A stretch of DNA of 64,000 nucleotides from Nostoc sp. FACHB-152 (GTDB lineage Bacteria; Cyanobacteriota; Cyanobacteriia; Cyanobacteriales; Nostocaceae). Below the pieces are notes generated by a model that did not search any database, had not been told where the DNA came from, and worked only from the letters and a program-made list of their open reading frames with translations. Position numbers and translations under genes: made by a program. Shown here in pieces: positions 5,209-9,412 of the stretch (positions are counted from its first letter, which is position 1; every line of letters starts with the position of its first letter). The stretch covers positions 1 through 64,000 of the forward strand of contig NZ_JACJRV010000035.1 of the NCBI RefSeq assembly GCF_014697475.1. The letters run 5' to 3'.

Positions 5209-5258
5209 CTAAAATGATAATCATTATTATAGTTTTATAATAATGATTATCATTTTAG
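5209..5258 (+). promoter_or_regulatory. Double Zur/Fur-type operator inside a 50-bp palindrome
   Basis: Two 23-bp arms (5209-5231 and 5236-5258) are perfect reverse complements separated by 4 nt. Each contains a 15-bp 7-1-7 inverted repeat: TGATAAT-C-ATTATTA at 5215-5229 and TAATAAT-G-ATTATCA at 5238-5252, centred 23 bp apart. Each differs by one base from TGATAAT-N-ATTATCA, which I recall as the cyanobacterial Zur box; it also resembles the Fur box. The right arm ends 9 nt before the hemB ATG, so a bound repressor would block initiation. Zur is preferred over Fur because of the genes downstream. Confidence 0.8.
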
Positions 5259-5267
5259 TTTGCTTTT

Positions 5268-6269
5268 ATGTTCGTCAAACCATTGAACCTCTCGCAACGT
5301 CCTCGTCGTCTGCGTCGGACTGCAACGCTGCGGCAGATGGTGCGGGAAACAACTCTCAGTGTGGATGACTTAATTTATCCAATGTTTGTTATGGAAGGAG
5401 AAGAGCAAAAAGTCGAAATCCCCTCCATGCCAGGATGTTATCGATATTCTCTAGATTTGTTACTGAAAGAAATAGCAGAAGTTTCGAGTTTGGGAATTAA
5501 TGCGATCGCTCTTTTCCCCGTCATCCCCGAATATAAAAAAGACGACACAGGTACAGAAAGTTACAATCCAGAAGGATTAGTACAGCAAACTGTCAAAGCT
5601 ATTAAACAAGCAGTTCCCGATATTGTGATCATTACCGACGTTGCTCTTGACCCCTTCACTACACATGGTCACGATGGTTTAGTCGATGAAAATGGCACTA
5701 TCTTAAATGACCCGACTGTAGAAGTGCTAGTCAAAATGGCACTTTCTCAAGCCGCAGCCGGAGCAGATTTTGTTGCCCCTTCCGACATGATGGATGGCAG
5801 AATCGGCGCAATTCGTCAGGCTTTAGACGCTGAAGGTTATATCAACGTAGGGATTTTGGCATACTCCGCCAAATACGCTTCCGCCTACTACGGCCCCTTT
5901 CGGGATGCTTTAGATTCAGCCCCGAAATTTGGCGATAAAAAAACCTATCAAATGGACATCGCCAACGCCAGAGAAGCTTTAAAAGAAGTAGCACTAGATA
6001 TTGCCGAAGGTGCAGATATCGTCATGGTCAAACCTGCCCTCGCTTACCTAGATATTATTCAGCAAATCCGCCAAACCACTCAGCTACCCATTGCCGCCTA
6101 TAACGTTAGTGGTGAGTACGCCATGATTAAAGCCGCCGCACAAATGGGTTGGATTGATGAAAAACAAGTAATTTTGGAAAGCTTAACCAGCATGAAACGC
6201 GCAGGCGCAGATTTGATTTTGACCTACTTCGCCAAAGAAGTAGCGTTGATAAAAAAGTATGAAGTCTGA
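5268..6269 (+). CDS. hemB: Porphobilinogen synthase (delta-aminolevulinate dehydratase), zinc-independent type
   Basis: HemB condenses two 5-aminolevulinate molecules to porphobilinogen in the tetrapyrrole pathway. At 333 residues it has normal length. The Schiff-base lysine is in [10 protein letters not shown], with [28 protein letters not shown] and [10 protein letters not shown] all present. The metal-site segment reads [14 protein letters not shown] (residues 124-137). The cysteines that bind catalytic zinc in zinc-type enzymes are replaced by Ala and Asp, so this should be a zinc-independent, magnesium-type enzyme. It is the first gene behind the double operator and is followed 54 nt later by the FAD protein. 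In Anabaena I recall a hemB paralogue within the Zur regulon, and this may be its counterpart. Confidence 0.95.
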
Positions 6270-6283
6270 AGTATGAAATTTTA

Positions 6284-6329
6284 TTGATTGACCTTTTGAC
6301 CAATAACTATTGACCCTTGACCAATGACT
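6284..6329. repeat. TTGACCAAT-type repeat supplying the next start codon
   Basis: Degenerate heptamer-type repeats (TTGACC, TTGACCAAT, TTGACCAATGAC) fill the gap after hemB. The ATG of the next gene (6324) is part of the last unit. No Shine-Dalgarno sequence is present in this stretch. Confidence 0.7.
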
Positions 6330-7628: not shown

Positions 7629-8666
7629 ATGACTCAATTAACAACACAAACTGCAAATTTAAGTATTGATATTCCTAAACAAGGAATGCCTGTGACTATT
7701 ATCACGGGATTTTTAGGCAGTGGTAAAACTACACTACTTAATCAAATTCTGAAAAACAAACAAGATTTAAAAGTTGCTGTTCTTGTGAATGAGTTTGGTG
7801 ATATTAACATAGATAGCCAATTACTCATTTCTGTAGATCAAGATATGGTCGAACTGAGCAATGGCTGTATATGCTGTACCATTAATGATAGTTTAGTGGA
7901 TTCAGTTTATCGAGTTCTAGAACGAGAAGAGCGCATTGATTATTTAGTTATTGAAACGACCGGAGTAGCTGATCCATTACCAATTATTTTAACGTTTTTG
8001 GGTACAGAATTAAGAGATTTAACAAATCTCGACTCGATTTTAACTGTAGTCGATGCAGAGACATTTAATGCAGAACATTTCAAGAGTGAAGCTGCCTTAA
8101 AGCAGATTACTTATGGTGATATTATTCTGTTAAATAAAACAGACTTGGTACCTCCAGAAAAAATTTCAGAATTAGAAAAATTTATCCATGATGTGAAACA
8201 TGGTGCGAGAATTTTACATACTCAATATGGAGAGGTAGCATTACCATTAATTTTAAACGTGGGTTTAACTCCAGCAGATGAGTATACTCCTCATGATCAT
8301 GATCATGAGCATGAACATCATCATGATCATGAGCATCATCATGAGCATGACCATCATCATGAACATCACTCACACCATTTAGAAAATGATGGATTTGTCT
8401 CCATTTCTTTCCAAAGTGATCGACCCTTTGATGTTTATAAATTTGAGAACTTTCTAACTGAAGAAATGTCAGAAGATGTATTTCGTGCTAAGGGAATTTT
8501 ATGGTTTAGCGATAGTGAATCTCGTCATATTTTTCAGTTGAGTGGACCCAGGTATAACTTATACGCTGATGAATGGCGGACTCAACCTAAAAATCAGTTA
8601 GTATTTATTGGCAGGAAATTGAATCATAATCAAATTTACGCGCAGTTAAACGAATGTTTGGGATGA
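7629..8666 (+). CDS. COG0523 (CobW/ZNG-type) GTPase, probable zinc metallochaperone
   Basis: A G3E-family GTPase of 345 residues. Walker A is GFLGSGKTT (27-35), the metal-binding CxCC motif is NGCICCTI (C80, C82, C83), and the guanine-specificity motif is NKTD (169-172). A stretch dominated by His, Asp and Glu (222-250) leads into the C-terminal CobW_C domain (FVSISFQSDRPFDVYKFENFL). COG0523 proteins in Zur regulons deliver zinc to client enzymes under shortage, and a His-rich tract is typical of these. An AGAAGG site lies just upstream of the ATG. Neighbours hemB and folE encode metal enzymes; FolE, with three classical zinc ligands, is an attractive client. Confidence 0.94.
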   Translation: MTQLTTQTANLSIDIPKQGMPVTIITGFLGSGKTTLLNQILKNKQDLKVAVLVNEFGDINIDSQLLISVDQDMVELSNGCICCTINDSLVDSVYRVLEREERIDYLVIETTGVADPLPIILTFLGTELRDLTNLDSILTVVDAETFNAEHFKSEAALKQITYGDIILLNKTDLVPPEKISELEKFIHDVKHGARILHTQYGEVALPLILNVGLTPADEYTPHDHDHEHEHHHDHEHHHEHDHHHEHHSHHLENDGFVSISFQSDRPFDVYKFENFLTEEMSEDVFRAKGILWFSDSESRHIFQLSGPRYNLYADEWRTQPKNQLVFIGRKLNHNQIYAQLNECLG

Positions 8667-8690
8667 TTAATTAATGTTAAGATATCTATA

Positions 8691-8730
8691 TTAGTTAATA
8701 GTTATTTCTGGTTACTAGACTATTAACTAA
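8691..8730. promoter_or_regulatory. Inverted repeat between the COG0523 gene and folE
   Basis: TTAGTTAATAGT (8691-8702) and ACTATTAACTAA (8719-8730) are perfect reverse complements with a 16-nt loop, followed by TTTC. It could be a weak terminator or an RNA processing or stability element that sets folE expression apart from the upstream genes. Confidence 0.5.
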
Positions 8731-8761
8731 TTTCAGAATTTATCTCAATTAAACAACGAAA

Positions 8762-9412
8762 ATGACTCTATCGATTCATCCCGATATGAATTCTGCTGCT
8801 CAAGTAGTTTCATCTTTATCTACGCAGCAGTTACCAACTGTCACAGAAGCGGAAATGATGCAAGCTGTGCGTACATTGCTAATTGGATTAGGAGAAAATC
8901 CTGACCGGGAAGGGTTAATAGATACTCCTAAGCGAGTTGTTAAAGCCTTAAAATTTCTCACCAAAGGGTATCATGAATCTTTAGATGAACTACTTAATGG
9001 TGCAGTTTTTACGGAAGATGCCAATGAAATGGTATTAATTCGGGATATCGATATTTTCAGTTCTTGCGAACATCATATTTTACCGATTCTCGGTCGCGCT
9101 CATGTTGCTTATATCCCTAATGGTAAGGTGATAGGCTTATCGAAAATAGCCCGTATTTGTGAAATGTATGCTCGACGTTTACAAGTGCAAGAGCGTCTTA
9201 CCCTACAAATTGCTGATGCATTGCAAGGTTTACTCAAACCTCAAGGGGTTGCAGTTGTAATAGAAGCATCTCATATGTGTATGGTGATGCGGGGTGTGCA
9301 GAAACCTGGTTCTTGGACTGTTACTAGTGCTATGCGCGGTGTATTTGCTGAAGATGCACGGACTCGTGAGGAGTTTATGAATTTGGTGCGACACAATGCT
9401 AATTTTCACTAA
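8762..9412 (+). CDS. folE: GTP cyclohydrolase I (type IA)
   Basis: FolE converts GTP to 7,8-dihydroneopterin triphosphate, the first step of folate and pterin synthesis. The 216 residues match the family, including [37 protein letters not shown] and SAMRGVF. The zinc ligands of E. coli FolE (Cys110, His113, Cys181) correspond to C102, H105 (SCEHH) and C173 (SHMCMVMRG), so this is a zinc enzyme. It is not the metal-flexible FolE2 form often induced by zinc shortage. It is the last gene of the putative Zur operon, 95 nt after the COG0523 GTPase, which could supply its zinc. The first 25 residues are poorly conserved, so the exact start is less certain. Confidence 0.95.

Follow-up and report, generated by a model that had tools for sequence, protein, structure and literature searches.

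We analyzed a stretch of 64,000 nucleotides (nt) from the genome of Nostoc sp. FACHB-152, hereafter the window, in which hemB, a flavoprotein gene, a COG0523 GTPase gene, and folE lie in a row on the + strand behind a palindromic operator, separated by gaps of 54, 75, and 95 nt. The first gene, hemB2 (5268–6269, +), encodes a porphobilinogen synthase that lacks the three cysteines of the zinc site (Pfam ALAD, 507 bits). It is followed by the gene for a flavin adenine dinucleotide (FAD)- and nicotinamide adenine dinucleotide (phosphate) (NAD(P))-binding flavoprotein of 409 amino acids (6324–7553, +), whose fold is nearest to that of the class B N-hydroxylating monooxygenases, by the gene for a COG0523 (CobW family) GTPase (7629–8666, +; cobW, 195 bits; CobW_C, 84.5 bits), and by a folE paralogue for GTP cyclohydrolase I (8762–9412, +; GTP_cyclohydroI, 256 bits), which keeps the Cys/His/Cys metal ligands in the motifs SCEHH and CMVMRG. 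The GTPase carries the marks of COG0523 proteins, namely the CobW domains, a CxCC motif (GCICC), and a His-rich tract. An earlier note on this DNA had named the same four families, the CxCC and His-rich features, and three FolE ligands; Pfam supported the families, and the motifs are present. The first gene after folE begins at 9614.

The operator is a palindrome of 52 base pairs (bp) (5208–5259, no strand assigned), in which 24 of 26 positions are paired and which promoter-like hexamers overlap. Its 50-bp core (5209–5258) ends 9 nt before the ATG of hemB2 and holds two 15-bp Zur-type boxes on the + strand, TGATAATCATTATTA (5215–5229) and TAATAATGATTATCA (5238–5252), each with one mismatch to TGATAATNATTATCA. 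The earlier note had described this arrangement as a 50-bp palindrome, and its coordinates hold. Boxes with at most one mismatch occur twice in the window against 0.01 expected from shuffled sequences; in the whole genome they occur at 14 places, two of which are the operator boxes. The Zur-type boxes exceed chance by far.

Paralogues in the genome

Elsewhere in the genome (8.6 Mb, 190 contigs) there is a single hemB, on contig C136, and a single clear folE, on contig C137, besides a sub-threshold folE-like match. The operon HemB lacks all three zinc cysteines, while the other HemB keeps all three, TCLCEYTSHGHCG; loss of these cysteines marks a zinc-independent enzyme. A housekeeping role for the operon is ruled out by the second hemB and the second folE, both found by the genome search that the earlier note had proposed.

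The genome has a single threonyl-tRNA synthetase gene, with 56% identity to thrS2 of a relative. The relatives L052 and L054, unlike the window, have thrS2 between the flavoprotein and GTPase genes. A second box (two mismatches) stands before thrS2 in L052 and L054 and before the GTPase gene in L053, where thrS2 is gone. The corresponding stretch of the window, 7554–7628, has lost both thrS2 and the second, internal box.

Comparison with known systems

In Synechococcus PCC 7002 (PMC4628125), zur deletion and N,N,N',N'-tetrakis(2-pyridylmethyl)ethylenediamine (TPEN) derepress hemB-II, folE-II, G0131 (GTPase-like), and G0132 (FAD oxidoreductase). The cluster on plasmid pAQ7 of this strain, for which Zur/TPEN control is thus known, resembles the window in its hemB, folE, FAD oxidoreductase, and GTPase-like gene. 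The only FAD protein annotated in that cluster, taken here to be G0132, has 58% identity over 97% to the window flavoprotein. However, the GTPase-like gene of PCC 7002 is weakly COG0523-like, unlike the clear COG0523 gene of the window; the divergent neighbour in Synechococcus NIES-970 reaches 22.7 bits with CobW_C, and no Pfam family is matched by the corresponding proteins of PCC 7002 and 7117. In addition, the PCC 7002 cluster genes are separated by others, whereas the window genes form one row behind the double box.

The zinc operon of Anabaena PCC 7120 presumably runs from all4725 to all4721; in contrast to it, the window has neither thrS2 nor a second, internal box. Zur binds the all4725 upstream region at 2.5 nM, and the Anabaena Zur regulon as listed holds hemB2, thrS2, folE2, and the COG0523 gene all4722 (PMC4787780, PMC6103462); the window shares the Zur-type upstream region. 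Corynebacterium glutamicum has a pair, Cg0795/Cg0794, in which a Zur-regulated oxidoreductase gene and a COG0523 GTPase gene are divergently oriented; the authors proposed a functional link between the two (PMC2823685). We liken this pair to that of the window by its regulation and COG0523 partner; the C. glutamicum genome contains some NAD_binding_9 match, not assigned to a gene.

The operon is of a kind already known, and Zur control of the flavoprotein is published for one strain, PCC 7002 (PMC4628125). The earlier note had presented the flavoprotein as a new member of the zinc-sparing response, and this claim of novelty falls, since the PCC 7002 FAD oxidoreductase had been reported as Zur-controlled. 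Its proposal of a zinc-limitation operon with paralogues is borne out by the response of the PCC 7002 counterparts and by the second hemB and folE. The window genes very probably constitute a Zur-controlled zinc-limitation operon.

Distribution of the flavoprotein

A flavoprotein match was present in 28 of 146 genomes of the cyanobacterial phylum, some matches being fragments. We counted 21 cyanobacterial loci; excluded were the window, four copies that are broken or reduced, a copy divided between contigs, and the distant relative L078. Of the 21 loci, 13 have a Zur-type box of the flavoprotein gene itself (no more than two mismatches, in the 200 nt upstream), against a background of 0.9%, and in three others the gene stands behind a boxed hemB2. 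A zinc-type neighbour (COG0523, hemB, folE, or znuBC) was found in 15 of the 21. In L078, a distant member of the Cyanobacteriota, genes for COG0523, WD40, a NicO-type permease, COG0523, the flavoprotein, and a ZIP transporter lie in one stretch (2084–10192). A gene for a WD40 beta-propeller is located near the COG0523 and flavoprotein genes in L055, L061, L062, L072, L078, and L037; clustering of COG0523 subfamily 5 with WD40 is reported by Haas 2009.

A contig scan of named genomes gave 430 relatives, of which the best 80, ranked by likeness to the flavoprotein of L078 in its zinc cluster, were kept (53 Bacillota and 27 other bacterial loci, assigned from the record titles). Because the scan loci were ranked, an even sample of 150 genomes was taken from one Bacillota order, that of one scan locus. 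The flavoprotein gene is carried by 46 of these genomes, and 45 loci were read (that of G265, split by a stop, was left out), ten of them also in the scan and 35 new.

What we take to be the Bacillus Zur, Fur, and PerR cores served for the box counts in the Bacillota. Within the 300 nt ahead of the gene and with no more than two mismatches, the Zur core was found at 39 of the 53 Bacillota scan loci, the Fur core at none, and the PerR core at one. Ten loci are boxless even when three mismatches are allowed; extending the range to 1500 nt reveals a box of no more than two mismatches at eight of them. The even sample gave the Zur core within 300 nt at 33 of 45 loci (background, 1.9%) and the Fur core at 0 of 45. 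A zinc-type neighbour, or a box within 1500 nt, a range beyond the 209–310-nt stretches from which the background was taken, accompanies 42 of the 45. Of the 35 new loci, 25 have the two-mismatch box within 300 nt, and 32 have either a neighbour or a box in the 1500-nt range.

COG0523 neighbours were counted through a GTPase-domain filter, which also loses a match truncated where the contig of L103 ends, and znuA matches of about 25% identity were excluded. A COG0523 gene is present in the flank at 42/53 Bacillota scan loci, 29/45 loci of the even sample, 11/21 cyanobacterial loci, and 11/27 loci of other bacteria; the comparison level is 2–12 matches per genome, many of them weak (19 genomes, one of which, G057, was included in error). 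The gap to the flavoprotein gene is shorter than 600 nt at 30, 20, 6, and 9 of these loci, respectively, and the COG0523 gene may be downstream, upstream, or divergent. Counting all zinc-type neighbours, 50 of the 53 Bacillota scan loci have at least one. S14 genes are located near the flavoprotein gene in Bacillota (21/53 scan loci, 10/45 sampled loci). Non-cyanobacterial plasmid records show a zinc-type neighbour in 9 of 11 cases (11 of 14 records were examined), and the haloarchaeal relatives adjoin COG0523, S14, HisI, or znuABC genes.

These results indicate that the flavoprotein is almost certainly a conserved zinc-limitation protein. Among the literature matches listed (no more than 30 per search, often from over 100 hits), none describes the flavoprotein of Bacillota or haloarchaea or its zinc link across phyla, most subscription papers lying outside the search.

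Two further features of these neighbourhoods were observed. In the haloarchaeal loci L044 (5980–8656) and L045 (5968–8573), two flavoprotein paralogues adjoin each other, with COG0523 and S14 genes beside them. At 16 of the 80 scanned loci, namely L140 (2113–2475) and 15 further Bacillota loci, there is a gene for an unnamed protein of about 120 amino acids.

Sequence and predicted fold of the flavoprotein

In Pfam, the flavoprotein has only weak matches, to NAD_binding_9, Pyr_redox, and Lys_Orn_oxgnase. The last match covers residues 97–293 at 35 bits, short of the full length of the family, versus 407 bits for a true member, and no NCBIfam model reaches its cut-off for the window protein. 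An AlphaFold2 model built from the window protein and 51 relatives had a predicted local distance difference test score (pLDDT) of 90.4 and a predicted template modelling score (pTM) of 0.89. All 50 fold matches listed from the PDB (of 1910) are N-hydroxylating monooxygenases, with template modelling (TM) scores of 0.73–0.78 and 14–17% identity; they include SidA, KtzI, PvdA, putrescine N-hydroxylase, DesB, DfoA, and lysine 6-monooxygenase, mostly from siderophore pathways. Profile comparison with true N-hydroxylases gave probabilities of 97.7–98.3%, the four cyanobacterial ones aligning over 307 columns at 98.3%.

Residues G11, G13, G196, G198, T319, and G320 are invariant in a 21-row alignment and make up the FAD and NAD(P)H glycine motifs and an ATG-type motif. 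The flavoprotein has these motifs and the fold in common with the class B enzymes SidA, KtzI, PvdA, and DfoA; it differs from them in overall sequence and apparently in its substrate-site residues, and the operon is without siderophore genes. In a 52-row alignment, LRS (59–61), VH (64–65), D38, R220, D229, P232, W234, R260, G263-S264, R376-N377, and G380, among others, are invariant. SidA and KtzI presumably bind their substrates through a Lys and an Asn, and the invariant Arg60 falls at about the place of this Lys in a weak alignment (18% identity). The position of Arg60, as judged from this alignment and the presumed Lys, suggests an anionic substrate.

Discussion

The explanation that best covers the results as a whole, and that we consider probable, is a zinc-limitation operon with a class B monooxygenase-type flavoenzyme that partners the COG0523 GTPase. 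When zinc is ample, Zur would be bound to the two boxes at the promoter, keeping the four genes off; when zinc is low, Zur would leave and the genes would be expressed, derepression being known for the corresponding genes of PCC 7002. Judging from their families, HemB2 would then make porphobilinogen without zinc, FolE2 would serve as a back-up for GTP cyclohydrolase, and the COG0523 GTPase would pass scarce metal to client proteins. The flavoprotein, presumably dependent on NADPH and FAD, may act in the same step as the GTPase; such a shared step is argued from the adjacency of the two genes in several gene orders. It might oxygenate a small anionic metabolite containing N or S, whereby a zinc ligand would be made or freed. 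We lean slightly towards class B monooxygenase-type chemistry for the flavoprotein, and we regard the making or freeing of a zinc ligand as speculative. More broadly, and only tentatively, we propose that this unnamed flavoenzyme family may be central to the way in which Cyanobacteria, Bacillota, and haloarchaea respond to zinc limitation, and that together with COG0523 it might supply a zinc-mobilisation chemistry, for example by oxidising zinc-buffering thiols or by making a ligand, so that the GTPase could load metal.

Several observations weigh against this explanation. Genome-wide, at up to two mismatches, the box pattern occurs 115 times and its reversed control 171 times. Since there is no enrichment at this level, an isolated two-mismatch match carries little weight, and the case for the operator depends on the close-match pair, its position, and the genes downstream. 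The promoter-like matches overlapping the boxes occur at chance frequency (10 versus 12.4 in shuffles), and a terminator-like match is located on the + strand within the GTPase gene (7689–7708), one of two such matches in total versus 3.5 in shuffles. The operon FolE keeps CEHH and CMVMRG, with the same metal ligands as the other FolE; therefore, it would be a back-up by regulation and not through a lost metal site. As for the distribution, 8 of the 21 cyanobacterial loci are without an own two-mismatch box, and in 4 of 28 genomes (L071, L076, L077, L079) the flavoprotein gene is no longer intact, being interrupted, broken, or left only as a C-terminal remnant; there it is thus dispensable. 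A box with at most two mismatches and a zinc-type neighbour are both absent from 3 of the 45 sampled loci. The relatives in Staphylococcus and Deinococcus have non-zinc surroundings, and the marker queries used found no zinc-type neighbour at 16 of the 27 non-Bacillota bacterial loci. When the surroundings of 15 of the 16 were tallied by Pfam family (66 of 89 open reading frames scanned), there was no enriched family, none occurring in more than two members, among the 25 of 61 families listed; those listed include one ZIP and two TonB-receptor matches.

The assignment of the chemistry meets objections of its own. The identity to N-hydroxylases is as low as 14–17%, and sequence profiles score thioredoxin-reductase-like, AIFM2/FSP1, and Baeyer-Villiger enzymes best, over partial stretches, so that the flavin chemistry could be of another NAD(P)H-linked kind. 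Furthermore, a CxxC pair (CxxCG[YF]P) near the C-terminal third occurs in 37 of the 52 alignment rows, all non-cyanobacterial, and in 26 of 45 with a stricter motif. This pair might serve in redox chemistry or bind metal, and many relatives from Bacillota and other bacteria carry it (e.g., L040, 5986–7143). Its presence makes the monooxygenase step and the whole explanation less likely, and the view of the flavoprotein as a redox partner more so.

According to that view, the flavoprotein is an NADPH-dependent reductase that keeps the CxCC thiols of COG0523, or the zinc-site thiols of its clients, reduced for metal loading. The repeated adjacency to COG0523 genes would fit such a role, as would the CxxC pair of the relatives and the profile matches to thioredoxin reductases and to bacillithiol-disulfide reductases. 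However, the window flavoprotein is without the redox-active CxxC mark of a thioredoxin-reductase-like disulfide reductase; neither this protein nor the cyanobacterial and haloarchaeal relatives checked in the alignment have the pair, which therefore cannot be the shared chemistry, and monooxygenases head the fold-search listing. We regard a reductase as possible, though rather doubtful. The flavoprotein might instead replace a zinc enzyme by an unrelated flavin-based function. HemB2 is a back-up of this kind and FolE2 probably is, and S14 genes accompany the flavoprotein in Bacillota; however, no zinc enzyme recurs as a counterpart in the neighbourhoods searched, a zinc-dependent alcohol dehydrogenase gene being present at one of the 80 scanned loci and one of the 45 sampled loci (the same genome), and in Metabacillus. 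Such a substitution appears unlikely.

The earlier note had raised the possibility of a metallophore-like product. An N-hydroxylase acting on an amine or amino acid that serves as, or becomes part of, a hydroxamate-type zinc metallophore, exported and taken up again, would agree with the fold matches and their siderophore pathways. TonB-dependent receptor genes are found near the flavoprotein gene in PCC 7002 and Leptolyngbya BL0902, and near a fragment of it in Calothrix NIES-4105, and in Synechococcus NIES-970 a siderophore synthesis cluster is located a few kb away. That cluster, however, has its own true Lys/Orn N-hydroxylase (407 bits), and the operon contains no gene for ligand assembly. 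Inspection by eye of the 40 largest neighbour clusters around the 80 scanned loci, most of them unannotated, recognised no assembly enzyme; the recurrent partners in Bacillota and haloarchaea, COG0523 and S14, are intracellular; and the invariant Arg stands about where we take the substrate Lys of SidA-type enzymes to be. We consider a metallophore quite improbable.

The remaining alternative concerns the regulator, namely that the operator responds to iron through Fur and not to zinc through Zur. The cyanobacterial box is presumably the same as the Bacillus Fur core, so that the box alone cannot decide between Fur and Zur in a cyanobacterium, and the genome encodes four FUR-family proteins. 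The decision comes from elsewhere: in PCC 7002 it is loss of zur, or TPEN, that derepresses the genes (PMC4628125), and in Bacillota, where the two cores differ, the flavoprotein gene has the Zur core, with the Fur core at 0/53 and 0/45 loci. We therefore rejected Fur control, which is very unlikely.

It has long been asked what COG0523 GTPases do for cells starved of zinc, and a flavoenzyme that in several phyla adjoins them or shares their repressor offers a direct handle on this question. For a cyanobacterium the operon is an ordinary one; what merits following is how widely the flavoprotein is linked to zinc.

Directly after the operon, at 9614–12392, a gene for an XPB-like helicase overlaps a DUF790 gene.

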